A DNA stretch of 41,702 nt from Bdellovibrionales bacterium (lineage in GTDB: Bacteria; Myxococcota; XYA12-FULL-58-9; SYDY01). The translations under genes and the position numbers were made by a program. Below are positions 16,257-40,417 of the stretch, one piece after another; within the stretch, counting starts at the first letter, position 1; every line of letters starts with the position of its first letter. The stretch covers positions 1 through 41,702 of the forward strand of contig SYDY01000113.1 in assembly GCA_005801425.1 (NCBI GenBank), given 5' to 3'. The notes beneath the pieces were generated by a model. The model was given only the letters and a program-made list of their open reading frames with translations, searched no databases and was not told the origin of the DNA.

Positions 16257-16265
16257 CGTTACGGC
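16250..16265 (+). repeat. direct repeat right of the HepT/MntA module
   Basis: GCTGCGCCGTTACGGC is the partner of 15436-15451, with one mismatch. Its last base is the final base of the gltH stop codon on the minus strand. Confidence 0.5.
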
Positions 16266-16981
16266 TAAAACGTATATTTGAGGAATGCACCCGCACTTAG
16301 CGCCGTCACGTTAGGCCCCATCACGTAGTAGCCGGTGGTGCTCACGCCTGCGCTAAAGTCCGTAAGCAATGTAAGATACACAAAATCGACACCACCGCTG
16401 AGTTGGGCATTCACCGCACTTAATGTGCCATTGCGCGGATTGTTTGGATCAACCGGTGCAGGTGTCAGGATGGCCATCCCAGCCCCTGCGCGCAGACGAA
16501 TTTCAAGCCGCTCAAGCGGGCGCAAGGAATACACAAGTTCAGGATTCAAAATATAAATCCCATAGTTGGAAGGCCCACCTTGCGCTTTGTTGGCGGCATT
16601 GTCGGCTGAAAATCCGGCACCTAACACCAATTGGATCGCAAGATAATCGGTAATATCATAGCCTGCTTTAAGCATCATGTAGGGCTGCGTGCTTGAATAA
16701 CCACGTGATCCACCAAATGTGAAAAACACACCGAGATCGGTTGAAAGATACCAGCCTTTTTCCAACACAAAAACCGCAAGCTTATCGCCTTCTTTTTTAG
16801 GTGCTGTTTCAACTTTGGCGGCGGGTGCAGCTTCTTCTTTTTTGGGAGCATCAAAATTGCCCACCAAATCGTCGTCGGATGTGTTGCCTGAGGCTTTGCT
16901 TTTGACATCGTCAGCGGCAAAGGCCGTTGTCGAAACCAAGAGAGACCCAACAACAACCCAAGATATTATTTTCGATAACAT
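16265..16981 (-). CDS. gltH: GltH-like outer-membrane beta-barrel protein
   Basis: I use the ATG at 16981, nine bases after GAGGGG, rather than the in-frame TTG at 17008. The signal peptide MLSKIISWVVVGSLLVSTTA precedes an Ala/Lys/Glu-rich linker (KKEEAAPAAKVETAPKKEG) and then about ten amphipathic strands ending in AGAFLKYTF with a C-terminal Phe, the normal outer-membrane barrel ending. In Myxococcus the protein encoded after the FHA protein GltG is the predicted barrel GltH, a component of the envelope-spanning gliding complex. Position and architecture agree here, although barrel sequences diverge fast and similarity itself cannot be measured. It is the last gene of the glt operon. Confidence 0.65.
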   Translation of the reverse strand: MLSKIISWVVVGSLLVSTTAFAADDVKSKASGNTSDDDLVGNFDAPKKEEAAPAAKVETAPKKEGDKLAVFVLEKGWYLSTDLGVFFTFGGSRGYSSTQPYMMLKAGYDITDYLAIQLVLGAGFSADNAANKAQGGPSNYGIYILNPELVYSLRPLERLEIRLRAGAGMAILTPAPVDPNNPRNGTLSAVNAQLSGGVDFVYLTLLTDFSAGVSTTGYYVMGPNVTALSAGAFLKYTF

Positions 16982-17008
16982 AGGTTCAATCCCCTCATAA
17001 TCAAGCAA

Positions 17009-18493
17009 TCAGCCGCCACCACGCGTGAACAACCATGGATAGGTAACCTCTGCCGTACCGCCACCCGCACATGGAGGGAAGCGCAAACGTTGCACCACAC
17101 GGGTCAAACATGTTTCCACCGCTTCGTTATTCATAGTGGATTCACGCACCGACGCTTCAATGACAGCGCCCGTCGGCCCAACCGTAAACGAAGAAACCAC
17201 TTTGCCCGCAAGATTCGGATTGCGTCCGATTTCTTGCTCATAGCAGTAGCGACCTTGACTCAACGCACGGGACACCACACGCAAAACCTGTTGTTGTGTC
17301 AAACAACCTTCGGTATCCACACGGCCGCTGACGACACTGTACGCATCCTTGCCACGTCCGCCCAAATTGACCGTACCCGACCCTCCCGTGCCGCGTCCTG
17401 TACCGCCACCAAAACCACCCACGCCGAGACTTGAACCGCCACCGCCAGAACCAAAGCCGCGCGCGCCCATGCCACCGCTACCGCCGGCATCGCCCATCGC
17501 CGTTCCACGCAGACCGCCCAACGCATTGTTGATGCCGCCACCGAGTCCACCCGGGCCAAACGTATCGGATGCTGCATCATTGCCGTTGGCATCCCCAAGT
17601 GCTGCAAAAATTCCCGATGACAGCGCAATCTTACGATCTTTTTCGCGTTTGTTGGGATCGATTTTGGGTGCACCATTCACACTGGCCAACGCGTCTTTCT
17701 TTTCTTTCTCAGGCTTGCCAAATTTTCCTTCTTCGTCTTTGTGTTTGGCACCTTCTTTACCCGATACCTCAAATTTTTTCGGTGGCGGCGCTTCTTGCTC
17801 AATCAACATCAACTTTGCGAACCGATTTGGATTTTGAAATAAATCGTCATCAAAAGTTGTTGGCGATTTGGGCGTAAAAATAAGTGCCAAAATCAAAAAC
17901 AAGTGTGCAAGCGCCGTAAGACCCAATATTTTGGTGAAGTAGTAATCGATAGAGCTCAGGAACGTCGTTGGTATCACACGGACCGGCGACACATATTGGA
18001 TCACAAATGTGACTTCACCTGCCTGCATGGCCAATCGGTCGTGCAGCTGAAGCTTGTAGCGATGACGCAATATGCCTGCATGGCTCGCATCCGACTCAAG
18101 CATATCATCGGCTTTGAGTCGGGCGTTGTCGCGGATGATCCCACGTTCATCGCGCACTTCAACAGCAAGTGAGTCGGTCCACGCAATGGTGAAACCGCCC
18201 TCCACCGACGGCTCCACAAAAGTGAACGCATCAACCGGCAGTCCGTCGCATGCAACGCGAAAATCGGCGCTAATATCCTCGCCAATCGTAATGCTGCGCG
18301 GGGTATTGTAATGCCCCACACTGATCACAGATTCACGCCAAAGCAGAACAACCTCAAGGGCCCTGTTATGCAGGGTGGGATGTTCTGTATCTTTCAGCTG
18401 ATCCTGGAATACATACATTGGGATCCCAGCTTTATCACGCGCCACTTCTGGTATATCGAGCTTGATCGATTCTTTGTCTTTTTTCTTTGCCAT
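17009..18493 (-). CDS. gltG: GltG: FHA-like, membrane helix, Gly-rich linker, AgmX/TonB-C domain
   Basis: The 494-residue protein has an FHA-like cytosolic region at about residues 45-170 (VISVGHYNTPRSITIGEDIS, LKADDML, HDRLAMQAGEVTFVIQY). One membrane helix follows at 188-206 (ILGLTALAHLFLILALIF), then a charged periplasmic segment (240-290) and a long Gly-rich linker (312-383). The C-terminal AgmX/PglI-type TonB-like domain at about 396-490 has QGRYCYEQEIGRNPNLAGKV and FPPCAGGGTAEVTYPWLF with Cys397, Cys417, Cys462 and Cys475. In Myxococcus, GltG is an inner-membrane protein that links cytosolic signals to the periplasmic and outer-membrane parts of the gliding complex. The FHA core motif is degenerate. 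A second protein of this architecture is at 36447-37709. Confidence 0.82.
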   Translation of the reverse strand: MAKKKDKESIKLDIPEVARDKAGIPMYVFQDQLKDTEHPTLHNRALEVVLLWRESVISVGHYNTPRSITIGEDISADFRVACDGLPVDAFTFVEPSVEGGFTIAWTDSLAVEVRDERGIIRDNARLKADDMLESDASHAGILRHRYKLQLHDRLAMQAGEVTFVIQYVSPVRVIPTTFLSSIDYYFTKILGLTALAHLFLILALIFTPKSPTTFDDDLFQNPNRFAKLMLIEQEAPPPKKFEVSGKEGAKHKDEEGKFGKPEKEKKDALASVNGAPKIDPNKREKDRKIALSSGIFAALGDANGNDAASDTFGPGGLGGGINNALGGLRGTAMGDAGGSGGMGARGFGSGGGGSSLGVGGFGGGTGRGTGGSGTVNLGGRGKDAYSVVSGRVDTEGCLTQQQVLRVVSRALSQGRYCYEQEIGRNPNLAGKVVSSFTVGPTGAVIEASVRESTMNNEAVETCLTRVVQRLRFPPCAGGGTAEVTYPWLFTRGGG

Positions 18494-18531
18494 GTTATCG
18501 CCCCTGGACGCTTTCGCCGTCCCCCTCCGCT

Positions 18532-18804
18532 TTAAAGCAAGTCAGCCGACGCAGACAGCTCAGGCAAGAAATTCTTACGAAGTTTAATCAGTGTGGAAAA
18601 CTCGCTGACCCGCCGATTCACCACATAGGCACCTTCGGGTTTCGTCAGTTGGCCTTCAATGACCACACCGGTAAGATCAATCACCGTTTTCTTCTTGTAT
18701 ACCACTTGGTTCGCCGGTGCACTGACCGGCGGCGTGGCTGCATACGCTATGGACGTCGCCGCCATGACACCCACAACCAACCCCATTGTCACCCATCGTT
18801 GCAT
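18532..18804 (-). CDS. gltF: GltF-like small exported protein
   Basis: This 90-residue protein has a signal peptide (MQRWVTMGLVVGVMAATSIA) and a short conserved mature part: VVYKKKTVIDLTGVVIEGQL, TKPEGAYVVNRRVSEFSTLI and LRKNFLPELSASADLL. Small proteins of this type lie between the TPR protein GltE and the FHA protein GltG in gliding and related clusters, where they are called GltF. A GGGGGC ribosome site precedes the ATG. It should be periplasmic or an accessory subunit on the inner-membrane side; its exact role is unknown. The call rests on size, position and the VIDxxGVxIxGxLxKPxG pattern. Confidence 0.7.
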   Translation of the reverse strand: MQRWVTMGLVVGVMAATSIAYAATPPVSAPANQVVYKKKTVIDLTGVVIEGQLTKPEGAYVVNRRVSEFSTLIKLRKNFLPELSASADLL

Positions 18805-18863
18805 TTAAAAGCCCCCTCTCCCCCGCTTAAACTACTAAAACGTTGGAACCCCACCCATGTCAA

Positions 18864-19994
18864 CTACGACTTTGTTTCAGCACCCGCATTGTTCGACTGA
18901 TCCACAGGCGATGACGTCTTCGCCGCCTTGATCAGCTGAAAAACCTTGTGCTCTTTGGCCAATTCAGGATGCGTTGTCAGATAACGATTGAAATGATCAA
19001 GCGCGCATTTGTTATTGGTGAGTTGCGTCATGCAAATCAATCCCATGGTGATTTGAAGTTCTTCTGTGCCAGGACAACCCGAGACCACATCGCTCAAGGC
19101 TATGATGGCCTCATTGCCTTTGCGTCCACCTTCAAGGGCATATCCCAAAGCCGTGCGCGTTTCACAATCGGAAACACCGCCACTCACCGCGGTTTGAAGT
19201 TCTTTGATCGCGCGATCGTAATCGCGATACTGAAGCGCCACACGGCCAATATTGGCATGGGCCAATGCCATCGTAGGCGCCAAAGTCAATGCTTTTTCGT
19301 AGAATCCAAGTGCACGTACTGCATCGCCTTGGCGATGTGCCAAAACCCCTAAGTTAAGCACAATGCCAGCATCGTTGGGTGCAACCTGCTGCGCATTTTT
19401 GAAAAAAGTTTCAGCCAAGACCAACCGGCCACGATCGGCATTGATTGTAGCCAAACTTTTGAGTGCCTCAACATTGCCGGGCTCACGCAATAAAACTTCC
19501 CGCGCAAGACGATCGGCTTCATCAAAACGTTTGGCACGACGCATTACCGTGGCATGCATCAGCGCAAACTCACTGCTCTCAGGGTGCGATTCCACAAGGG
19601 GCGTGAGCACCGCTGCTGCGTCGGAAATTTTACCCACCTCAAGAAGAACCCGCACCAAATTTCCCACCGCCTGGGGTGCATCGGGTGCAAACGTCAGCAC
19701 TTCACGGTATGCATCGATGGCTTTTTCGTACTGCCCTGCCCGTTCAAGCGATATGGCCAAATTAAGCGACGCATCCTGCCATGCTGGGCGCGCCGCACGC
19801 GCGCCGGCAAACGACACGGAGGCATCAGCCCACTTGGACTCATTCGCAAGCGTCATCCCGCGTCTGAAATCGGATGCACCAGGCGCGACACTCATGGCGG
19901 TTGATGCGTTCATGCGTGCGCCGCCGCAACCGAGAAGAAATCCGCATAACATAAGGGCGGTTCGCGAACCGCCCCTACAATAAGTGCCAATCAT
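18864..19994 (-). CDS. gltE: GltE (AglT)-like TPR lipoprotein
   Basis: The start is fixed by an ideal ribosome site (GGAGGTG four bases upstream) and an ATGA overlap with gltD. The N-terminus ends in the lipobox FLLGC. The mature protein is built from about eight TPR units, for example ASLNLAISLERAGQYEKAID, AGIVLNLGVLAHRQGDAVRA and MALAHANIGRVALQYRDYDR, over residues 45-340. In Myxococcus, AglT/GltE is a TPR protein of the gliding complex. Codons 6-13 (CRGGSRTA) are encoded by a REP-like palindrome at 19955-19978, and without it the signal peptide would have almost no n-region. The tail is polar (KAAKTSSPVDQSNNAG). Confidence 0.8.
   Translation of the reverse strand: MIGTYCRGGSRTALMLCGFLLGCGGARMNASTAMSVAPGASDFRRGMTLANESKWADASVSFAGARAARPAWQDASLNLAISLERAGQYEKAIDAYREVLTFAPDAPQAVGNLVRVLLEVGKISDAAAVLTPLVESHPESSEFALMHATVMRRAKRFDEADRLAREVLLREPGNVEALKSLATINADRGRLVLAETFFKNAQQVAPNDAGIVLNLGVLAHRQGDAVRALGFYEKALTLAPTMALAHANIGRVALQYRDYDRAIKELQTAVSGGVSDCETRTALGYALEGGRKGNEAIIALSDVVSGCPGTEELQITMGLICMTQLTNNKCALDHFNRYLTTHPELAKEHKVFQLIKAAKTSSPVDQSNNAGAETKS
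19955..19978 (-). repeat. REP-like palindrome inside the gltE signal peptide
   Basis: On the minus strand the repeat reads GTAG followed by the perfect 20-base palindrome GGGCGGTTCGCGAACCGCCC (sharing one G). The same unit occurs at 40434-40457 and 40486-40509. The GTAG foot plus hairpin is the classical REP layout. Here it is translated in frame as part of gltE. Confidence 0.8.
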
Positions 19995-22900
19995 GTGCCA
20001 CCTCCAATTAATGCAGGAACGATCGACACCGTCTCGCTCGGCAAAGAAGCGAACTTACGTACTTCTGCAAATCGTGCCGGTTCATAGGTCGCAAGTGCCT
20101 GCTGGGATTGCATCAACCATGTGTTGTACAAACCAATCTCAAAGCCTTTGGCCAATGTGCGATCAAAGGCTTCGATGGCTTTTTCTTCGAGCGGAAATGC
20201 ACGTGATTGAAGCTCCGTGAGATAAATAGCACATTGGTCTTCAGACAAACGATCGGGGCATTGGAGATCCATGATTTGTGTCGCAAGATCTTGGTACAGT
20301 ACACCAATACGATACAAACCCGCGAGTGCCATATCGCCATCGCCCACGGCAACAACTTTAACGTAACGGTCTTTGATATCTTTGATTAGATTGGTTTTCT
20401 CTTTCAAAACCCGCACGATTTCTTTTTCAGCCCCTGAAAGCTTTAGGCTGCGGTAGTGATGGTATTCGCCTTCAATGCTTGCAAACAACGCTTCTGCACC
20501 TGCTTTGCGTACACATGCTTTATCTTGTGCAGGTTTATCGAGCTTATTGTAGGCCGTCAAAATACCCTGAAATCGTGTATCCACATCCTTCAAAACGCCC
20601 GCATCACGTCCAAGCAGCAAACCACGGTGGGCCGCACATACAGACTGTCCCGGATCTTTGCCATGCAATGCCTGGGCAAGTTTCTCGAAATGTGCTGTTG
20701 CATCGGCTGCACGTCCCGCACGGGCAAGGACTTCACCCAAGCGCCAAGAGACCGAGGCGGTGTCATCCTGATTCGGGAGGTCTTTGATATAGGTTTCAAA
20801 GTTTGCAATGGCCTGGGCATACTGTCCAAGTCCCTCACGATAAAGACCCGCATTGTACAAGGCATCGCCGCGTTGTTTCGCTTGAGGGAAATCTTTCGCG
20901 TAGGTCTCATACAAAACGGCTGCCCGTTCAAATCCACCGGTACGCTGATAAAAACCGGCGGTCATAAACAAAAGCGGCTCACGCAAAGCATCGGCTTCAG
21001 GCAATTTCGCACCTTCGATCTCTTCGCCCTCCACGGCGACTGGCTTCTTGTAGTTTGCAAATGCTTTCAAGCTGCGTTCGGCGTTCTCAATGGCATTGCC
21101 GAACTTCCCAGCCTTATCGAAATAGACAACGCTGTTGTAAAGTGCCACCAAACGGAATTTACTCTCAGGAAATTGGTCAACAAACGTGGTGTATTTTTGA
21201 GCAATTTCCAGCGGTGTATCGCTCTTCTCCGCCACATCATGCACGATATTGAAGCTTGAGCCTTCGATAAATTCACCGATTCGCTTTGCAAATGTGGCAT
21301 CGGCCATCAGCTGTTTATGTTCACGGAATTTGCGTGCCCATTGATTGAGCTGCGCCCAGTCCTTGCGAACATTAAACGACTCGATAATAAATTCTGCACC
21401 CAAACGCGCAAGCTTGTCGGTGGGCCAGCGTTCAATAAGCTCGCCAAAGCGCTTGGCCGCTTCTTCAAATTGATTGTGAATATAATAAAGCCGAGCACTC
21501 TTGAATTTGACCTTCACAATCTCAGGATCTTCTTTAGCAATGCGTACAAAGATATCACATGCATTGGCGAGCTTTTGTTCAATCTCGCCCATGGGTTCAG
21601 AAGCATAAGTACGGCCTTTTTCAAGTTTATCAATGCGTTCAAGCTCTTTGAGACGTCCTTTGGCGCGGCCTGCTGTTTTAACATCAAGCTTTGAACCCAC
21701 TTCTTCTTCGGCCCCCGTGGCCACTTTTTCCCATGCGAGGATTGACGTGTAGGACGCAGGTTTCGCAAACTTTTTGTCGTCGCCCAAGGCCGCTACGAGA
21801 TCATATTGCTCGGCTGCCGCGGAAAATTCTTTCAGCTCAAATAAGATTTCTGCATAGAAAAATCGGAAATTGTAGCTGTTGTCGCTGGTTGGAAACCGCT
21901 TCAAGTAGTCGGCATATAAATCGCGGGCCAACTTATAGGTTGTCGCCAATTTGGTAGTTTGGGCGGCACGGTGTTGATCTGTGACCAATTCGGCCATCTT
22001 CATTTCCACCATGGCAAAGGCTTCATTGAGCACGGTTTCATTGGTCGCATTGCGCGTGGCCCAAACACCTTGAGGCGCGTAGAGATCAACCAAGCGTTTG
22101 GCTTCCAAACGAACTTCGGCATTGCGGCCCAAATGCGCGTAGGCCTCCACAATCGAAGCCTGATTCAACGGCGCCGAGCCGGCATAGGGATAGCGCTTGT
22201 TCATTTCCTGACGTGTTTTGATTTCAAGCGGAAATTTTCCATCGCGCTGATAAAGTTCGGCCAAGCTCAGATAATAGCGATACGCATCTTTAGGGCCCAA
22301 TTGTGCTTGGTAGTAATCAAACGGTTCATCCAAACCATCGATGGCGGCGTACACGCGCACCATGTCACGCAGGGCTTCGCCACGCAGCTGCATACGTCCT
22401 GCTTGCTCCATGCCCACACGCTGTTCTTTATCTTGTTCGTTGGCGTAAGAAACGACACGTTTAAAGCGCTGCAGCGACGATTCGTATTCTTGCAGATTGT
22501 AATCGCACCACGCGAGTTTGTAGAGCGCATAGGCATAAATGCGTGGACGATTGGTTTTGGCCGCTTCGCTGTAGGCCTGCACGGCTTCTGGCAACTTGTT
22601 GTTGTCAAAGAAATGCTCACCAAGCTGTAACCAGCCATCGGGCGCAAAGTTGGACTCGGGATAGCGTTTGAGCAATTTCCAATACAAGCTCACGCCCTGA
22701 TGGGCATCGCCGCTTTCATACAAGGCACTACCAAGATTGTACAGAACTTCATCGCTACGCGGATATCGTGGATAATCTGTTAGAATACCGCGATAAATGC
22801 TCAATGCATCCTCGCGAAATATTTTTCCGCTGTCTTGCAAGCTCAAACTAGCAAGCGTTGGCGCATCGCCCGTGGAACCTGATTGATGCCAGGCCTCCAT

Positions 22901-23221
22901 GGCTTTATCCAAAAGACCGCCCGCCGCAAGTTCTGCATACTTGGCTTTGGCCCAATACAATTCAGCCAAACGGAATTTCACATCCGCCTGCTGCTCCCCC
23001 GCCGGAATGGTCGGCAAAAGTCGCATGAGCTTGCCAATGGCCTCATCACGTTTTTCCTGAGCTCGGGTGCCAAGATCAAGCTCGGCACCAGGCTTTGCCC
23101 AGTCAAAACGTGCAGCACTTTTGCGGTCTTCCTCTTTTGCTTTTTTCGCCGCACTTGCAACGGAGCCTGATGCAAGCACCACAAGCGAGACAAGAGCACA
23201 TCGCGTAAACTTTACACCCAC
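19991..23221 (-). CDS. gltD: GltD (AgmU)-like giant TPR periplasmic protein
   Basis: I place the start at GTG 23221. It follows the gltC stop by seven bases with GAGG five bases upstream, and it gives the signal peptide MGVKFTRCALVSLVVLASGS followed by VASA. The open frame extends to 23419 inside gltC and is not credible there. The 1076-residue mature protein is a long TPR solenoid, with units such as EVLYNLGSALYESGDAHQGV, YAYALYKLAWCDYNLQEYES and ASVSWRLGEVLARAGRAADA. AgmU/GltD of Myxococcus is a comparably long periplasmic TPR protein that decorates the gliding complex along the cell. The gene lies between gltC and gltE as expected for a GltD. The binding partners are inferred from family context. 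Confidence 0.82.
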   Translation of the reverse strand: MGVKFTRCALVSLVVLASGSVASAAKKAKEEDRKSAARFDWAKPGAELDLGTRAQEKRDEAIGKLMRLLPTIPAGEQQADVKFRLAELYWAKAKYAELAAGGLLDKAMEAWHQSGSTGDAPTLASLSLQDSGKIFREDALSIYRGILTDYPRYPRSDEVLYNLGSALYESGDAHQGVSLYWKLLKRYPESNFAPDGWLQLGEHFFDNNKLPEAVQAYSEAAKTNRPRIYAYALYKLAWCDYNLQEYESSLQRFKRVVSYANEQDKEQRVGMEQAGRMQLRGEALRDMVRVYAAIDGLDEPFDYYQAQLGPKDAYRYYLSLAELYQRDGKFPLEIKTRQEMNKRYPYAGSAPLNQASIVEAYAHLGRNAEVRLEAKRLVDLYAPQGVWATRNATNETVLNEAFAMVEMKMAELVTDQHRAAQTTKLATTYKLARDLYADYLKRFPTSDNSYNFRFFYAEILFELKEFSAAAEQYDLVAALGDDKKFAKPASYTSILAWEKVATGAEEEVGSKLDVKTAGRAKGRLKELERIDKLEKGRTYASEPMGEIEQKLANACDIFVRIAKEDPEIVKVKFKSARLYYIHNQFEEAAKRFGELIERWPTDKLARLGAEFIIESFNVRKDWAQLNQWARKFREHKQLMADATFAKRIGEFIEGSSFNIVHDVAEKSDTPLEIAQKYTTFVDQFPESKFRLVALYNSVVYFDKAGKFGNAIENAERSLKAFANYKKPVAVEGEEIEGAKLPEADALREPLLFMTAGFYQRTGGFERAAVLYETYAKDFPQAKQRGDALYNAGLYREGLGQYAQAIANFETYIKDLPNQDDTASVSWRLGEVLARAGRAADATAHFEKLAQALHGKDPGQSVCAAHRGLLLGRDAGVLKDVDTRFQGILTAYNKLDKPAQDKACVRKAGAEALFASIEGEYHHYRSLKLSGAEKEIVRVLKEKTNLIKDIKDRYVKVVAVGDGDMALAGLYRIGVLYQDLATQIMDLQCPDRLSEDQCAIYLTELQSRAFPLEEKAIEAFDRTLAKGFEIGLYNTWLMQSQQALATYEPARFAEVRKFASLPSETVSIVPALIGGGT

Positions 23222-23228
23222 GTCAGCC

Positions 23229-24725
23229 TCACTTGCACTCGGTACGGAGCGCGTGTCTGTAATAACCGATTTCGTCTTTCCAAAATTCTTTTTGGAAGTT
23301 CCAGTGCTGCCATTGGTCGGTTGGGATCTCAGGTCTTGGCAAACGTGCGCGCTGCCCCATGGCAATTTCGCGGCCTTGCTCAAGCCACTTGCGTTCTGCA
23401 TCGGCAACTTCGAAATCAAGAATGTTCACTTGATTGCTGAAGTTTTGAAGTTGCGCGGCCAATTGCGCCAAACGGGTTTTACTCCAAGAACCCACGGCGG
23501 TTTTCAATTGATCGCCTTGCGCTGTCATAATGAGCGCAAGATCGTTTTTCAAATCACTTCCCTGCCATACGGCGATATCGCGTACTTTGGATTCTTCCCA
23601 AGCCAAATGACTTAGCATGTGATGGAAATCAGCAAAGTGACGGGTTCGTCGCACTTCACGCACCAATTCCAAGGGTATTTCACGTTGCGTCTCGGCGGTT
23701 AACACCGTGTAAAATACGCTGGGGTCCTGATTTTTCGCCAGAAATGCCTGAAGCTGTTGCTCCATGGTTCCATACAATTCTTGATAACGCAGCACGGAGG
23801 CACGCACACGATCCCACTGGCAATTCACAAAATAGGTGGTGCCCTGCAACACGTACGCTTCAGGAATATGGCGTTTGCTAAAATAGGGTGACGAAATACT
23901 TTGTATTTGTCCGAGCGCCGCGCCATAATTTTCCATCTGAAAATAGGCCCAAGCCGAATCAAACAGTGCATTAAACCATGGCTCAGACAAACGGGCCACT
24001 TTGCCAAACGCCTGGGTCGATGCCTCAAACTGCCCCGCACCATACAACACGCGGCCCAATGCCAAATGCGCAAGATTGAGGACTTCTTGCTGCTCTGCAG
24101 TTGCATGGGCTGGATCAATCGACTTCACTGCTTCTCTGAAACGTGCAAGCGCAGCATCATCCTGACCGCGTTTTGAATACACAAGCCCAAGAAAATACTG
24201 TGCTTTAGGATAAAGAATACTGCTGCCATCCACTGCTTTCAAAAAGGTTTCGGCATCGGATAACTTGTTTTTTTGAACCGATAATTCCCCTAGCAAAAAG
24301 TTAATCTGTGCAACTTTGGCCGGCTCTAGTTTTCCAAAAGCTTGGCTATCAAGATATTCGCTGAACAGACTTGGCACGATCAAGTGATCGTGAAGCTCTG
24401 CCTGAATGTCCAAAAGCCCTTGTGCGGCATTCAAGTAAAAACGATTGCGCTTACCCGATTTAAAAACATCGGTGTAATAAAAAAGTGCGGGGACATAGAG
24501 GCCCATTTTACGAAGGGATTCCGCAAGATAAATCTCCGATTCATCACGCACCTGCGGATCACCATCAGCCCGCAAAACATCATAAAAACTGTAGGCTGCC
24601 TGCTCATAATTGCCGTCACGATAAAGGCGCAGGCCTTCTTGTAACGATTGCGCATGGGCTGAACCCACCACGCCCAGCAGAGCGATAGTCACAACGAAAA
24701 AATGGCGTCGCATCATGCCCCTCAT
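23229..24725 (-). CDS. gltC: GltC-like TPR periplasmic protein
   Basis: The 498-residue protein has a signal peptide (MRRHFFVVTIALLGVVGSA, HAQ) and TPR-like helical repeats through residue about 300, such as LRLYRDGNYEQAAYSFYDVL, AQYFLGLVYSKRGQDDAALA and FNALFDSAWAYFQMENYGAA. A helical C-terminal region ends in WQHWNFQKEFWKDEIGYYRH. In Myxococcus, GltC is a soluble TPR-containing periplasmic protein encoded with the barrels GltA and GltB. Here it follows gltB by eight bases and precedes gltD, so the two halves of the Myxococcus system, which as I recall are split between loci, are joined. ATGs at 24725, 24716 and 24713 are all possible starts; the first has a GGGGAAA upstream. Confidence 0.76.
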   Translation of the reverse strand: MRGMMRRHFFVVTIALLGVVGSAHAQSLQEGLRLYRDGNYEQAAYSFYDVLRADGDPQVRDESEIYLAESLRKMGLYVPALFYYTDVFKSGKRNRFYLNAAQGLLDIQAELHDHLIVPSLFSEYLDSQAFGKLEPAKVAQINFLLGELSVQKNKLSDAETFLKAVDGSSILYPKAQYFLGLVYSKRGQDDAALARFREAVKSIDPAHATAEQQEVLNLAHLALGRVLYGAGQFEASTQAFGKVARLSEPWFNALFDSAWAYFQMENYGAALGQIQSISSPYFSKRHIPEAYVLQGTTYFVNCQWDRVRASVLRYQELYGTMEQQLQAFLAKNQDPSVFYTVLTAETQREIPLELVREVRRTRHFADFHHMLSHLAWEESKVRDIAVWQGSDLKNDLALIMTAQGDQLKTAVGSWSKTRLAQLAAQLQNFSNQVNILDFEVADAERKWLEQGREIAMGQRARLPRPEIPTDQWQHWNFQKEFWKDEIGYYRHALRTECK

Positions 24726-24733
24726 GTTTTCCC

Positions 24734-25507
24734 CTAAATCAGGACGCTAAAGCCGAAAATGAACATGATATTGTTGCGTATCTCTGTGGTTGTATTGGTA
24801 TCTGTACTGCCCACCCCCACTTTGCGATCTGCATAGACGAAGTCACGTACTTCGAGCTTAAGCCCAAACATCTTGCTAAAATAGAAGCGCATACCACCGC
24901 CGAGACTTCCCGCAACTTTCCACTCATCGGAAAAGTCAGCAGGCGATCGCAAACCACGTCCTGCGCCAACCAATCCCGAACAACCCCGTGAATTGGCCAC
25001 ACATGTTTCTTTGGTTTGCGCCATACCTGCACCTGCAGTGACATACGCGTCGTAATCGATGAGGGTATTGTAGCCCAAGAAGCTAAAACGAAATTTGCCG
25101 TACAAAGCCGAGAGCTGCAAATTCAACCCACCGAAATAGGTCATCTGCTTGAGACTCACTTCATCAGGGTGCAGGCCCTCTTCGCTGAAGAGATCTTCAA
25201 CGGTGCTTGAGTAGTAAGAATACATTCCCTTGGGGATGCTACTTACAAGTTCAATCGCCAAGTTTTCTCGAAAGTGATACGCAGCCGAGAGGCCACCGCC
25301 CACAAAACCCACAAACTTAGGGTTCATGGAACCGAAAAACATCGGTGTGAGCTCAAACTTGCCTTTTTTGGAGTAGGCACGTTTCTGAACAACGTACGCA
25401 GATTCATCGCCACTGTACACCGAGCGCTCGGATTTATCATCCGCCGCCACCGCCGGCAGTGCGCTTAGTGTAAGAAGTAGCCCAAGTCCCCAATGTGTAA
25501 AGCGCAT
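24734..25507 (-). CDS. gltB: GltB-like outer-membrane beta-barrel protein
   Basis: The ATG at 25507 gives a good signal peptide (MRFTHWGLGLLLTLSALPAV, AA). An in-frame GTG at 25519 overlaps the gltA stop as TAGTG and could be used instead. The mature protein is a barrel of about 230 residues, with strands such as FELTPMFFGSMNPKFVGFVG, GGLNLQLSALYGKFRFSFLG and GLKLEVRDFVYADRKVGVGS, ending in IMFIFGFSVLI. An extracellular loop with CVANSRGC may be disulphide-bonded. GltA and GltB of Myxococcus are paired predicted outer-membrane barrels of the gliding complex, and this gene shares fold and position with them. It is clearly related in layout to the upstream gene. Confidence 0.7.
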   Translation of the reverse strand: MRFTHWGLGLLLTLSALPAVAADDKSERSVYSGDESAYVVQKRAYSKKGKFELTPMFFGSMNPKFVGFVGGGLSAAYHFRENLAIELVSSIPKGMYSYYSSTVEDLFSEEGLHPDEVSLKQMTYFGGLNLQLSALYGKFRFSFLGYNTLIDYDAYVTAGAGMAQTKETCVANSRGCSGLVGAGRGLRSPADFSDEWKVAGSLGGGMRFYFSKMFGLKLEVRDFVYADRKVGVGSTDTNTTTEIRNNIMFIFGFSVLI

Positions 25508-25518
25508 GGAATACCCCA

Positions 25519-26325
25519 CTAAAACAGCATCGAAAGGCCACCTTGGCCAAAGTAGTATGACGAAAAGATCGACGACGCGCTGTTGTCACCCTTGAAATTA
25601 AACGTGTCGCGAAACCCCATGTAGCGAAATTCACCCTTAAGCGCGATACGCTCGGTGATAAAAACCTTGAGTCCCGCCCCTGCCGTAAGATGCGCTTTGG
25701 CACCCCCAAACATGCCACCGTCAAAAGCACTACCGCCATTGAGTGTATAATTGGAGTCCCCATTGCGCGTTGCCGTCACCGTACGGGTGCCGTTCACGCC
25801 ACCGCCCAACAAGGTGTAGATCTGAAGACTTACCGCCATCTCACTCACGATGTTGATTTTTCCGTAGAGAGGCGCCCATATGAGGTAAGCATCGGCTGTC
25901 CCGGTGATCTGTTTGGCGTCAGGCAAGTTCGGCGACACATTGCTACCGCAATCCGTGCAATTCACCACTTTACGACCAATCACACCGCCGCTGGATGTCA
26001 CCAAACTGTTGAGCGTTCCATGCAAGTAACCGATGGATCCGCCAAGCGCGAGTGAACCCCACAGGTAATGATTGACATCGACCACCCCGCCCATGTGCGA
26101 CGAATACTTGTCGGTCACACTCCCGGAGAACATCATGCCAATTTCAGTTTTGCCCCGCAGAGGATGGGCTTCACCTAACAACATAGGAACTTTGGTGAAG
26201 TCTTTGTCCTCAAACGGATCGAGGCGGTAACTTGGACCTGCTGCGTGCGCAGGCGCGGCCAACGCACCCACCAGCGCACCCACCAGTGCAATAAAAAGTA
26301 CGTTTCGTTTCAGTCCTTGAAGCAC
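25519..26325 (-). CDS. gltA: GltA-like outer-membrane beta-barrel protein
   Basis: This is the first gene of the minus-strand glt operon. It has a signal peptide (KRNVLFIALVGALVGALAA, PAHA), then a short segment and a barrel with strands such as GKTEIGMMFSGSVTDKYSSH, KINIVSEMAVSLQIYTLLGG and RIALKGEFRYMGFRDTFNF, ending in YFGQGGLSMLF with a terminal Phe. A loop contains NCTDCG, a possible disulphide. The GRE-Y-MGFRD motif near the C-terminus is matched in style by the downstream GltB-like barrel (LEVRDFVY), suggesting that the two are paralogs. The promoter should lie in the 123-base space shared with folB. Confidence 0.7.
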   Translation of the reverse strand: MLQGLKRNVLFIALVGALVGALAAPAHAAGPSYRLDPFEDKDFTKVPMLLGEAHPLRGKTEIGMMFSGSVTDKYSSHMGGVVDVNHYLWGSLALGGSIGYLHGTLNSLVTSSGGVIGRKVVNCTDCGSNVSPNLPDAKQITGTADAYLIWAPLYGKINIVSEMAVSLQIYTLLGGGVNGTRTVTATRNGDSNYTLNGGSAFDGGMFGGAKAHLTAGAGLKVFITERIALKGEFRYMGFRDTFNFKGDNSASSIFSSYYFGQGGLSMLF

Positions 26326-36132: not shown

Positions 36133-36447
36133 TTAAAACGTTCCTACAAAATCTAAATATTTCCACCACGCAAGCGAAATCACAAAAACGAAAATAACCA
36201 ACACAATCCAAAAACCGCGCCTGGGCATGCGTGTGACATGTTCTTCAGACACTTCATCATCTGCTAACTCTCCAGATGCATTCACAATATTTGTAGTATG
36301 AAGCGCTTTAAACGGGATCCCTGGCACAACCCCAGGAGCACCATGGGTCGCGTCCATAGGGATCGCCTGCTTTTCATCCAAGGCGCCGATGGCCTCAAAT
36401 TCTTCTTCAATCAGCCGAATAAATTCAGGATTTTCTTTTTCAGGCAT
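36133..36447 (-). CDS. small tail-anchored protein
   Basis: The start at 36447 is set by an ATGA overlap with the upstream FHA gene. The longer open frame reading back into that gene is a shadow. The 104-residue protein is acidic and polar (PEFIRLIEEEFEAIGALDEK) with one C-terminal membrane helix (GFWIVLVIFVFVISLAWWKY), so most of it should face the cytosol and be anchored in the inner membrane. I do not recognise a family. Its coupling to the FHA - membrane - TonB-C protein suggests that the two form a complex. Confidence 0.65.
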   Translation of the reverse strand: MPEKENPEFIRLIEEEFEAIGALDEKQAIPMDATHGAPGVVPGIPFKALHTTNIVNASGELADDEVSEEHVTRMPRRGFWIVLVIFVFVISLAWWKYLDFVGTF

Positions 36448-37709
36448 CACTTCGATCCCCCTATTTCCATGGTAAATTCTGCCACAACCATCCCCGGCTT
36501 TTGCGGAAATTTCCACGCCCCCACCACAGCAAGAACACATTCACGTGCAGCAGAATCAACCGGCCAGTCACTGCGTATTTCAACTTTTGTGACATCCCCC
36601 AAAGCTGAGATCATCCATTGTAAAACGATGCGACCCGATTTTTTTTCACGGGCAACACACGCATCAAGATCATGCCTATTAAATTCCAAAACATGCTGAA
36701 TTTCTTTGTATGATAAGGCACCGTACACGATACGATGAAGCATCATCGGCAGAGCATGGTTCGTGGATGAAAACGATCCTGTGGATAACAGCAATTGCGC
36801 AAAACGGCCTTCTTGTTCCGGGAACCAGGGCACAGGTACAGGGAGAGACGCCCCTAACATCATAAGAAAAACAACACCATGCACAACAAGTGAAAGCCCC
36901 ACTGCTGCGATTGCAGCCCTATCCCACGCAACAGATCTTGCGGATTTATCAATATACGCATCCGACACCATACGAAGTGTAAACGTCGCGCCTGACCACG
37001 CAATACGTACACGAGTGGTCGGATTGATCTCGATCCGCCATGCATCTTCAAAATCATTTTCTATCGAAGCAAAGCCAGATGCAACGGCCTCTTCAAGGCT
37101 GTAGGTTGCACCTTGAACCACAACCTCACCCGTCATGCCCACAGCAACACATGCAAAAGGTCGGCCATCCACAAAACGCACCAAAGGAAATGGACACACC
37201 GGCAACCCGCCGCACGCAAGCCCTATGTCATCATCACCCCGATCGCCAATCCATAGGCCATGAGGCGATTTCAAATGCTCCACACGTAACAATTCGTTGC
37301 CATTGAGATAACACATTTCAAGCAACGTGAGATCTTCATCGTTTTCGTCGACCTCTAAAACAGGCATCACATCATCCTGTTCTATTTCTTCCGAACGAAG
37401 AGTCGCATACTCGGAAACAAAAAGTTTCACGCCCCCCAATCGGATCGCATCGTGGGCATTGAGCATGCCATGCCATGCACGTCGACCATTCACCTCGATA
37501 TCACCACCCCCGGAACAATCTAAAAATTCGATGCCACCATCGGTGGCCGTAAGTTGCAAATGAACAGGTTGCACACCATGATCTTCGATGATGCAATCAC
37601 AACTTGGTCCAGAGCCAATCGTCACCACATCCGAGATATGCAAAGAAAAAGATCGGTGTTCGGTAGAACACCCTGGACGAACAATATCGAGAGTAAGCCT
37701 TACGGCCAT
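36447..37709 (-). CDS. GltG-like FHA - membrane - AgmX/TonB-C protein
   Basis: The 420-residue protein has an N-terminal FHA-like domain at about 5-100 (VVTIGSGPSCDCIIEDHGVQ, PVHLQL, DIEVNGRRA, HDAIRLGGVKLFVS). A second beta-rich domain follows at 125-250 (HGLWIGDRGDDDIGL), then one membrane helix at 266-286 (AIAAVGLSLVVHGVVFLMML) and a C-terminal AgmX/TonB-C-like domain at 336-418 (RHDLDACVAREKKSGRIVLQ, ECVLAVVGAWKFPQ) with paired Cys351 and Cys391. The architecture equals that of GltG at 17009-18493 but lacks the Gly-rich linker. It is probably an inner-membrane linker that senses phosphothreonine in the cytosol and reaches across the periplasm. It is translationally coupled to the small tail-anchored gene. 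No barrel or TPR genes are adjacent. Confidence 0.75.
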   Translation of the reverse strand: MAVRLTLDIVRPGCSTEHRSFSLHISDVVTIGSGPSCDCIIEDHGVQPVHLQLTATDGGIEFLDCSGGGDIEVNGRRAWHGMLNAHDAIRLGGVKLFVSEYATLRSEEIEQDDVMPVLEVDENDEDLTLLEMCYLNGNELLRVEHLKSPHGLWIGDRGDDDIGLACGGLPVCPFPLVRFVDGRPFACVAVGMTGEVVVQGATYSLEEAVASGFASIENDFEDAWRIEINPTTRVRIAWSGATFTLRMVSDAYIDKSARSVAWDRAAIAAVGLSLVVHGVVFLMMLGASLPVPVPWFPEQEGRFAQLLLSTGSFSSTNHALPMMLHRIVYGALSYKEIQHVLEFNRHDLDACVAREKKSGRIVLQWMISALGDVTKVEIRSDWPVDSAARECVLAVVGAWKFPQKPGMVVAEFTMEIGGSK

Positions 37710-37811
37710 TTTGAGACCGCTTTCATACTTCGTTGACTATTCGATCGATTGCCATGAACTATTATCGCAACAATGGCCCAAACCGCGAAATTTTGTTAAG
37801 ACTATGATATT

Positions 37812-38243
37812 ATGTTGTTGATTACTTTCCTTATTATGACCGCCTCAGAGCCCCAATCTGATTTACCCTACACGCATGTCACGCTCCATACCGACCACGG
37901 TTCCGTCATGGTCGATGCGCAGGTGGCAAACGATGTGCCCAGCTGGTCCAAAGGCCTCATGTATCGGACCCATATGCCCCCCCAAGAAGGCATGCTCTTT
38001 GTGTTTCCCCGTGAAGAAAAACGAAGTTTTTGGATGCGTAATACACCGCTCGAACTGGATATTATTTTTATAGGCAATGACCATACGGTGGTGGGCATCG
38101 TTGAACGTGCTACCCCCAACAGCACCCACAATCGAAGTGTTGATGCCTTATCGCGCTACGTGCTCGAAACCCATGGTGGATTTTCGCGCAAACATGGCAT
38201 TCGCAGAGGAGCACGTGTTTCATGGATATTACCCAAGCCATGA
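37812..38243 (+). CDS. DUF192 family exported protein
   Basis: This 143-residue protein has the DUF192 signature: WSKGLMYRTHMPPQEGMLFV, FPREEKRSFWMRNTPLELD and IIFIGNDHTVVGIVERATPN. The N-terminus MLLITFLIMTASEPQ could be a short signal peptide or membrane anchor. DUF192 proteins are small beta-rich exported proteins without a settled function. The stop overlaps the ATG of the following polytopic protease-like gene (ATGA), which links the two. A possible -10 element TATGAT lies just before the first ATG, so the second Met (37836) could be the real start. Confidence 0.82.
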   Translation: MLLITFLIMTASEPQSDLPYTHVTLHTDHGSVMVDAQVANDVPSWSKGLMYRTHMPPQEGMLFVFPREEKRSFWMRNTPLELDIIFIGNDHTVVGIVERATPNSTHNRSVDALSRYVLETHGGFSRKHGIRRGARVSWILPKP

Positions 38244-40417
38244 ACCGACGATTCTTGATGGCCATCGCTGCACTTGCAGTTTTTTCGTTGGTGCTTTGCG
38301 TCATCCCTCTCTTTCATCTTCTAGGTTATGAGTACGCACAAGCCATCCTCATATTTTCCATGCCATGGGCGCTGGCTCTTGCAACACAAAACATCCCCAT
38401 TAAAACCGCTTTTCTTCAATCCCTTGCACTGCTCATTTTCCCGCTCATCGCCGCACTTATCAACGCGGTTCGTGTACAAAACTGCAATATCGCCACAGGA
38501 CTTGGCCTCTATGCATTATTGCCAGTCATCGGCGTTTGCTACGCAACATCGTTTGGCGTCTTGCTCACCATTTTAAAAAGACAAAGCAATATCCGACGTG
38601 CTGGACTTTGGGCGGTTGGGATCGCTCTTGCCCATGCATGTTTCAGTGCATGGCGATTTTATCATGAACCCCCTATTTTCGTTTTTGACCATTTTTGGGG
38701 ATATATCCCCGGCGCCATCTACGACGAAGCCTTAGGACTCGATCGACGCCTTCTTATCTTTCGACTCGCCACCCTTGGCCGCACGATGATGATCCTTTCC
38801 ATCACGATGCTTTTGGCCCAAAGACATCGCCATCGCATCATTGGGATATTGATCTGTCTTGGGGTATTTTTTGCCGTCGATCCAATGCTAGGTTCACGTT
38901 TTGGATATCGGATCACACGAGTAGAAATTCAAACGGCATTGCCCACCGTCATTACACGCCCAGGCCTTGTGATTCATCTTCCCAAAAAAATACCGCTCGA
39001 TCTTCAAGAACGCATCGCCGATGATCATGCGTATCGCTTGGCTCAAATTCAAGAACATCTTCAAGTGACGAAGACACCGACCATCCACAGCTACATGTAT
39101 TCCAATGCTCAAGAAAAAGGTCGTCTCATGGGCGGCCATCATGTGATGTTTGCAAAACCATGGCATGCAGAAATTCACATCCATGGGGTCCATTCACCCC
39201 ACGATGTCATGGCCCATGAAATGGTGCATGCGGTGGCCGCATCGTTTGGAAGCCGATTGTTGGGTGTGAGTGCACGCTATGAGCTTGGCATCAACATGGG
39301 GTTGGTCGAAGGTCTCGCAACCGCATTGAGTCCTGAGCGTGGAGATCTTGATTTGCATCACTGGGCGAGGGTGTTGATGGCATCTCCTCAAAAATCCAAT
39401 GTTAAACGAATCATGTCAAGTGTCGCATTTTGGCAAGAAGCCCCTGGACAAGCTTACACAGCTGCTGGGTCATTTATTCGCTTTCTTCTGGATACACGAG
39501 GCCCAGAAGCACTCAAAGCCGCATATCGCAATGGAAGACTTGATGCGGCCTATGGGACATCGCTTGATACCTTGATTCAAAACTGGTTGCAGTTTCTTGA
39601 AACCATTCCCCTGGAAAAAACAAGTGTCGCTTTGGGGCATGACAGATTTCGTCATCCGAGTATTTTCAAAAAAACATGTGCCCGAGAAGTGGCGCTTTTA
39701 CGCGAAGAAGCACGCCGTGCATCGCCCGCCCATGCCGTCGTTTTATTGGAAAGTGTTTGCAAACATCTCCCTGAAAGTGTTGATGCAAAAATAGATCTTG
39801 CGCTCGCCAAATTACGTGCGGGCCATGATATGGCGTTTATTGCCAATGCAGAACACTTGTGTGGCGATAACACCATGCATCCCACCCAAGCCATGCGATT
39901 GCATGATGCGTTGCTCAATATTTTTTGGTTGAAAGGCGATTTTTCACGTGCCCAACAAGAGCTTCAATGGCTCAGTGAAAATGCAGCAACGCTTGCAGAC
40001 AAACGACGGCGTAAAGCACAAACTTGGGCACTTAACCTAAAACAGTCTTCGCTCAGTATGGCTTTGGGGCGATATCTCACCCAATCGACAAATACGAAAG
40101 AAGGCGAAGAGAACTTGATGCTTGCAAAAAAAACGTATCCTCATGACGTCACGGTGGATTATTTGATCGGGCGTTTTTTCGTAAATCATCACCAAGCACA
40201 AAAGAGCCTCGAATACCTCATACGTGCTGAAAAGCATCCTTTTAAGCCTTTTGCCTTTGAAGCAATGGCTTTGCTTGGTGATCAATATGGATTATTGAAA
40301 CGATATCATGAGGCAGAAGAAACATATCTTCGGGCCGCAACTATCAGCCCGTCATCAGGTCCCCATGCCCATATGATGGACCAGGTCGCACGCATGCGAT
40401 GGTATGAAGAACGATAA
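38240..40417 (+). CDS. polytopic membrane gluzincin-like protein with TPR tail
   Basis: I use ATG 38240, which forms ATGA with the preceding stop; an in-frame ATG at 38222 is also possible. The first 220 residues hold about six membrane helices (LMAIAALAVFSLVLCVIPLF, ILSITMLLAQ, IIGILICLGVFFAV). A soluble domain has AHEMVHAVAASFG (His326, Glu327, His330 of an HEXXH zinc site) and GLVEGLATALSP with Glu357 as the likely third ligand, a gluzincin pattern. The C-terminal 250 residues are helical with TPR-like units (TVDYLIGRFFVNHHQAQKSL, AEETYLRAATISPSSG). The domain should be periplasmic. It may be a membrane-tethered peptidase; I cannot name a described family. Coupling to a DUF192 gene is the only context. 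Confidence 0.7.
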   Translation: MNRRFLMAIAALAVFSLVLCVIPLFHLLGYEYAQAILIFSMPWALALATQNIPIKTAFLQSLALLIFPLIAALINAVRVQNCNIATGLGLYALLPVIGVCYATSFGVLLTILKRQSNIRRAGLWAVGIALAHACFSAWRFYHEPPIFVFDHFWGYIPGAIYDEALGLDRRLLIFRLATLGRTMMILSITMLLAQRHRHRIIGILICLGVFFAVDPMLGSRFGYRITRVEIQTALPTVITRPGLVIHLPKKIPLDLQERIADDHAYRLAQIQEHLQVTKTPTIHSYMYSNAQEKGRLMGGHHVMFAKPWHAEIHIHGVHSPHDVMAHEMVHAVAASFGSRLLGVSARYELGINMGLVEGLATALSPERGDLDLHHWARVLMASPQKSNVKRIMSSVAFWQEAPGQAYTAAGSFIRFLLDTRGPEALKAAYRNGRLDAAYGTSLDTLIQNWLQFLETIPLEKTSVALGHDRFRHPSIFKKTCAREVALLREEARRASPAHAVVLLESVCKHLPESVDAKIDLALAKLRAGHDMAFIANAEHLCGDNTMHPTQAMRLHDALLNIFWLKGDFSRAQQELQWLSENAATLADKRRRKAQTWALNLKQSSLSMALGRYLTQSTNTKEGEENLMLAKKTYPHDVTVDYLIGRFFVNHHQAQKSLEYLIRAEKHPFKPFAFEAMALLGDQYGLLKRYHEAEETYLRAATISPSSGPHAHMMDQVARMRWYEER

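Follow-up and report, generated by a model that had tools for sequence, protein, structure and literature searches.

The window analysed here, a stretch of 41,702 nucleotides, is an entire contig (C110) in a draft genome of 3.38 Mb with a completeness estimate of 100%, which its relatives place in the phylum Myxococcota. It carries a run of eight genes in an order common to two paralogous systems of Myxococcus xanthus, the Glt and Nfs complexes. The question is to which of the two the run belongs. A first-pass annotation had read it as a complete gltA-gltH set. Our best explanation is a different one: very probably this is an Nfs-type (nfsA-H) operon, with products predicted to form an envelope-spanning transducer, in a lineage that has lost the gliding paralogue gltA-J.

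All eight open reading frames lie on the minus strand at 16265-26325 in the order A-B-C-D-E-F-G-H, and no gap exceeds 59 bases; on the layout the earlier reading was right. A and B overlap by 1 base and D and E by 4; B and C are separated by 8 bases, C and D by 7, E and F by 59 (the largest spacing) and F and G by 38, while G and H are 0 bases apart, or 27 if H is started from ATG. The D protein has the 1076 aa first given for it, from a GTG start at 23221. In consensus scans for sigma-54 promoters, sigma-70 promoters and terminators, matches were no more frequent than expected by chance. The genes are as follows.

25519-26325, minus strand: nfsA-type outer-membrane beta-barrel, 268 aa, heading the conserved A-H run (TIGR04565, E 1e-15)
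24734-25519, minus strand: nfsB-type outer-membrane beta-barrel, 261 aa (TIGR04565, 80 bits, cut-off 60)
23229-24725, minus strand: nfsC-type periplasmic TPR protein, 498 aa (GltC model, 204.9 bits, 3e-60, cut-off 450; C tree)
19991-23221, minus strand: nfsD-type giant TPR protein, 1076 aa (D trees with M. xanthus nfsD; AU test)
18864-19994, minus strand: nfsE-type TPR lipoprotein, 376 aa, lipobox LLGC (GltE model, E 4e-25)
18532-18804, minus strand: nfsF-type small exported protein, 90 aa (CglF model, E 2e-14, 53.6 bits, cut-off 90)
17009-18493, minus strand: nfsG-type inner-membrane transducer, 494 aa (GltG model, 4e-71; AgmX tail, 92 bits; G tree)
16265-17008, minus strand: nfsH-type CglE-family barrel, 247 aa from TTG (CglE model, 126.6 bits, 9e-37, cut-off 70)

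Both A and B match the myxobacterial barrel domain TIGR04565 of NCBIfam. We take CglE to be GltH, and CglF to be GltF; the cut-off of the CglE/GltH model is exceeded, and the matches to the GltC, GltG and CglF/GltF models are significant but below theirs. For E, the GltE model is the second-best match, with another TPR model ranking above it. No NCBIfam model matches D, and a search with the window D recovers the D genes of relatives' clusters, the top 25 at 1e-75 or better. The first-pass annotation had looked to profile matches with GltD, GltF and GltG for a decision. Such matches are significant for F and G, but they do not separate the paralogues. As a control we used locus L288, which is M. 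xanthus nfs: its NfsD of 1202, NfsF of 94 and NfsH of 200 aa, together with the spacings, match the published description once the published start corrections are applied (PMC2875238). The GltC model gives 205 bits (204.9) for the window C, 211 (210.6) for Myxococcus NfsC and 492 for a true GltC of the same order. Against the CglE model NF033755 (cut-off 70), Myxococcus NfsH reaches 212.7 bits and a GltH of the same order 97, so this model does not tell NfsH from GltH. Because Nfs proteins match Glt models as well, a match to a Glt-named profile is no proof of Glt membership, and we dropped such matches as a family test.

Placement was instead taken from phylogeny. Glt-like clusters were gathered from genomes across the phylum, their genes were mapped with iterated profiles, and gene trees were built for D, C and G in which most Myxococcota families are represented by Glt and second-copy clusters. 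The supports given in brackets are SH-aLRT values obtained in quick mixture-model searches, on trees drawn with midpoint rooting; the split between Glt and the rest is independent of the root. In the D trees the window lies inside a same-order group of six, within an Nfs clade of 26 rows that includes the nfs of M. xanthus AM003 (98), and true Glt D proteins, those of same-order relatives among them, form a separate clade (100). The G tree (97) and the C tree (99) likewise put the window in the Nfs clade. Constraining the window D into Glt cost 230 log-likelihood units and was rejected (p-AU 1.9e-07). A true gltA-H operon, whether for gliding or as an ancestral Glt core, that diverged fast and lost I and J would account for the identical gene order and the significant matches to Glt models, and joined glt operons are indeed common in Myxococcota. 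Yet the three trees and the AU test oppose it, an old glt site appears to lie 10 kb off within the same window, and same-order relatives carry both operon types separately, a true Glt operon and a window-orthologous one (L063 and L310 in G171; L062 and L127 in G169). We consider it very improbable, and the claim of a gltA-gltH set is not upheld.

Membership of the Nfs lineage agrees with what has been described in M. xanthus, where nfsA-H is a second colinear eight-gene set in a single cluster, has no GltI, GltJ or GltK paralogues, is required to assemble the spore coat and runs on the shared AglRQS motor (PMC3858216, PMC2875238). The window shares with that set (MXAN_3371-3378) the order of eight genes in one run, the lack of motor genes and of GltI/J, and the clade, with D about 33% identical. 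It differs in that M. xanthus NfsG has an N-terminal FHA domain, which the window G lacks, and in that the window genome, unlike M. xanthus, is without Glt. The Glt system of M. xanthus (gltA-K) is paralogous to the window operon, colinear over A-H and built of domains in common; it belongs to the other clade, however, and has gltI (giant TPR) and gltJ (GYF/AgmX), often directly after gltH, which are absent from the window. Profile searches found no GltI, full-length GltJ, GltK or AglRQS gene in the cluster, nor, for GltI, GltJ and AglRQS, anywhere in the window, GltJ being taken at full length, which bears out the earlier observation. A GltG-like gene is present in the window, at 36447-37709. 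From these absences a non-gliding core complex had been proposed. They are uninformative, because they are normal for nfsA-H (PMC3858216); a non-gliding role is nevertheless likely, since the operon is the non-gliding paralogue.

The G protein had also been described as an FHA/TonB-C protein. Its architecture is a single transmembrane segment, a Gly-rich linker and an AgmX/TonB-like tail, and the TonB_C tail is the only Pfam match, so that half of the description stands. The FHA half does not: the alignment with the GltG model begins only at position 203, and a GltG-FHA profile built for the purpose found no N-terminal FHA at E<=10, although the same profile does detect the domain in Nfs G proteins from other families. 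None of the seven same-order Nfs G proteins checked has it, and those checked from other families do. FHA loss in NfsG is thus an order-level variation, and the orthology of the window G rests on trees and gene order. In three of these same-order operons with an FHA-less NfsG, a stand-alone FHA protein of about 200 aa adjoins A on the same strand at the operon head (L230, 5653-6303; L291, 6055-6606; L310, 11125-11748), with some of these frames overlapping A if start codons are left uncorrected. There, the FHA domain looks to have moved from NfsG to its own gene; no stand-alone FHA gene adjoins A in the window.

If the operon is Nfs, what became of Glt? A Glt-type D alignment searched against the genome finds two D-like genes only, that of the window (647 bits) and one on contig C118 (468 bits), whereas true Glt D proteins in four same-order genomes score 1334-1689 bits with the same alignment. 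Glt-type GltD is absent from the genome by this search. Two features elsewhere in the window bear on its loss.

36447-37709, minus strand: probable remnant of a lost gltG, 420 aa against about 650-690, with FHA, middle domain, transmembrane segment and AgmX tail, the linker deleted
37812-40417, plus strand: flank of the probable old glt site, encoding a DUF192 protein and a membrane protein of 731 aa; their divergent arrangement with the remnant repeats that with gltA in relatives

In ten loci (L060, L061, L062, L063, L065, L077, L079, L080, L082 and L090) at least one of the two flanking genes has an orthologue next to gltA, and the relatives with this flank beside gltA span the phylum. The best phmmer matches of the 36447-37709 product are the operonic true-Glt GltG proteins of same-order relatives (6e-29 to 1e-25); in BLAST, the L063 GltG reaches 1e-16 and NfsG 1e-6 or weaker. 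The G tree leaves the protein unplaced, with a branch length near 3, so the case for a gltG remnant is built on pairwise similarity and synteny. Alternatively, an FHA/AgmX-tail protein of independent origin may stand here by coincidence, which would also explain that very long branch and its position away from Glt, and AgmX-tail proteins are multi-copy in the phylum. This seems unlikely given the same-order GltG proteins at the top of its matches, an alignment with GltG that covers the FHA domain, the middle domain with its transmembrane segment, and the tail, and the occupation, in the right orientation, of a conserved glt neighbour site. From similarity and position, 36447-40417 is the probable scar of a lost glt operon that left a GltG-like remnant behind. 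Glt-type D was likewise not found in a further genome, G170, where the old-glt flank shares a contig with the Nfs-type operon and no Glt gene was found within about 1 kb.

Which motor, if any, might drive such a complex? The genome holds five MotA/ExbB-type genes, and in the motor tree only the one belonging to an R-Q-S trio on C118 falls in the AglRQS clade (99). Also in this clade are the presumed Myxococcus M1 and M2 motors, which we assigned by position from locus tags. The genome-wide search for aglRQS suggested earlier thus yields one AglRQS-class motor, on C118, and no member of the clade of the presumed M1. The trio sits in a third glt-like cluster (L057, C118:115501-135500) with the order D-E-F-R-Q-S-G; upstream of it is a gene for an Arf/MglA-like GTPase, and downstream one for a cyclic-nucleotide-binding protein. 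This G4-type cluster has D, E, F and G paralogues and an AgmX-tail transducer in common with the window, but it forms a separate clade, holds R, Q and S inside the cluster, and has no detected A-C or H; its Myxococcus counterpart is probably L120, the MXAN_1922 region. No other AglRQS-class motor was found in this genome, and the C118 R-Q-S trio is, by elimination, the candidate motor partner of the window complex. Counting against this pairing, the M. xanthus M2 motor protein MXAN_3003 did not bind NfsG (PMC3858216), and the MXAN_3003 clade lies near the C118 motor in the tree.

Two other candidates were set aside. A trio on C80, considered as aglRQS, groups with ExbB-ExbD-ExbD and is adjoined by TonB-like and receptor-like genes, which marks it as a TonB-type system. 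A protein on C112 (L058, 9426-10802) has the zinc ribbon, GYF domain and AgmX tail of the GltJ architecture, but it resembles Myxococcus GltJ (3e-13) far less closely than most operonic GltJ proteins do, and it shows no clear orthology.

The products of the operon are predicted to form a transducer spanning the envelope. G would sit in the inner membrane, its TonB-like tail reaching into the periplasm; D, E, F and C would supply the TPR and linker parts, periplasmic or lipid-anchored; and A, B and H would be the outer-membrane barrels. By analogy with M. xanthus, a proton-powered motor of the AglRQS class would drive G, and the complex would move or wrap polysaccharide over the cell surface, as for the spore coat of that species. 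The C118 pairing, force transmission, a polysaccharide cargo and any link to sporulation are all inferred. The operon could, at somewhat less than even chances, now have a general function at the cell surface, for example in organising capsule or polysaccharide, the spore coat being a specialisation of Myxococcaceae. The spread of the lineage over about 25 families, some of its genomes measuring 2.7-3.4 Mb, favours such a task, as does a family with joined Glt and no Nfs (f14); uncultured members might, however, form cysts or spores.

How widespread and how old is Nfs? An Nfs-type D alignment searched against 174 genomes of the phylum gave a match of at least 760 bits in 129 genomes and 25 of 30 families, a cut-off set post hoc between tree-verified Nfs D (789-1711 bits) and Myxococcaceae Glt D (about 660-677), with not all matches placed in a tree. 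Families f3, f8, f14, f25 and f27 had no Nfs-type D match at or above this value. Nfs operons form a single A-H run nearly everywhere, an exception being L323 with a 3.6-kb gap after C. In most families Glt, too, is joined from A to H, often followed by gltI-gltJ; among sampled families the split form is limited to f18, f19 and f20; in f4, C and D are separated by an insertion. Since the joined form is common in Myxococcota and the M. xanthus-type split is confined to those three families, joined gltA-H looks ancestral. The earlier suggestion of an ancestral joined operon therefore finds support, although through loci other than the one for which it was made. In one same-order genome (L062/L124, G169), the glt operon is interrupted after gltC, and gltD follows about 6.8 kb further on.

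Family groupings are broadly alike in the Glt and Nfs subtrees of the D tree. As the two roughly match, the Glt/Nfs duplication is to be dated before the sampled families diverged. In the account of Wartel et al. it is placed as a recent event in a terminal branch (PMC3858216), and a duplication before family divergence contradicts that account. We give roughly even odds to a broader picture in which Nfs did not arise lately from gliding as a sporulation system. On this view the ancestor of the sampled Myxococcota already had Nfs and Glt as two distinct envelope machines, several lineages, the present one among them, gave up Glt and retained Nfs, with a motor presumably borrowed from the third, motor-containing cluster, and the job outside Myxococcaceae is probably broader than spore coats.

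The age and spread of Nfs, and the loss of glt with its probable remnant, are of most interest here. An ancient Nfs makes its role testable where fruiting bodies are not known, and a genome that combines Nfs with a single AglRQS-class motor while lacking Glt lends itself to the question of whether motors were shared ancestrally. There is also a practical consequence: under the database names CglE, GltC and GltG, Nfs genes pass for gliding genes, and gliding would thereby be wrongly inferred in many Myxococcota genomes.

Rumen and UBP6 genomes (L290, L308 and, in part, L280-L307) contain a run of barrel-C-D-E-F-G-H with a second C/D-like or R-Q-Q set after it. In the D tree these runs lie apart from the Myxococcota clades. 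In the window itself, a gene pair at 15471-16230 is convergent with the operon end; its second member is a weak match to an MntA-like nucleotidyltransferase, and the two are possibly a toxin-antitoxin pair.
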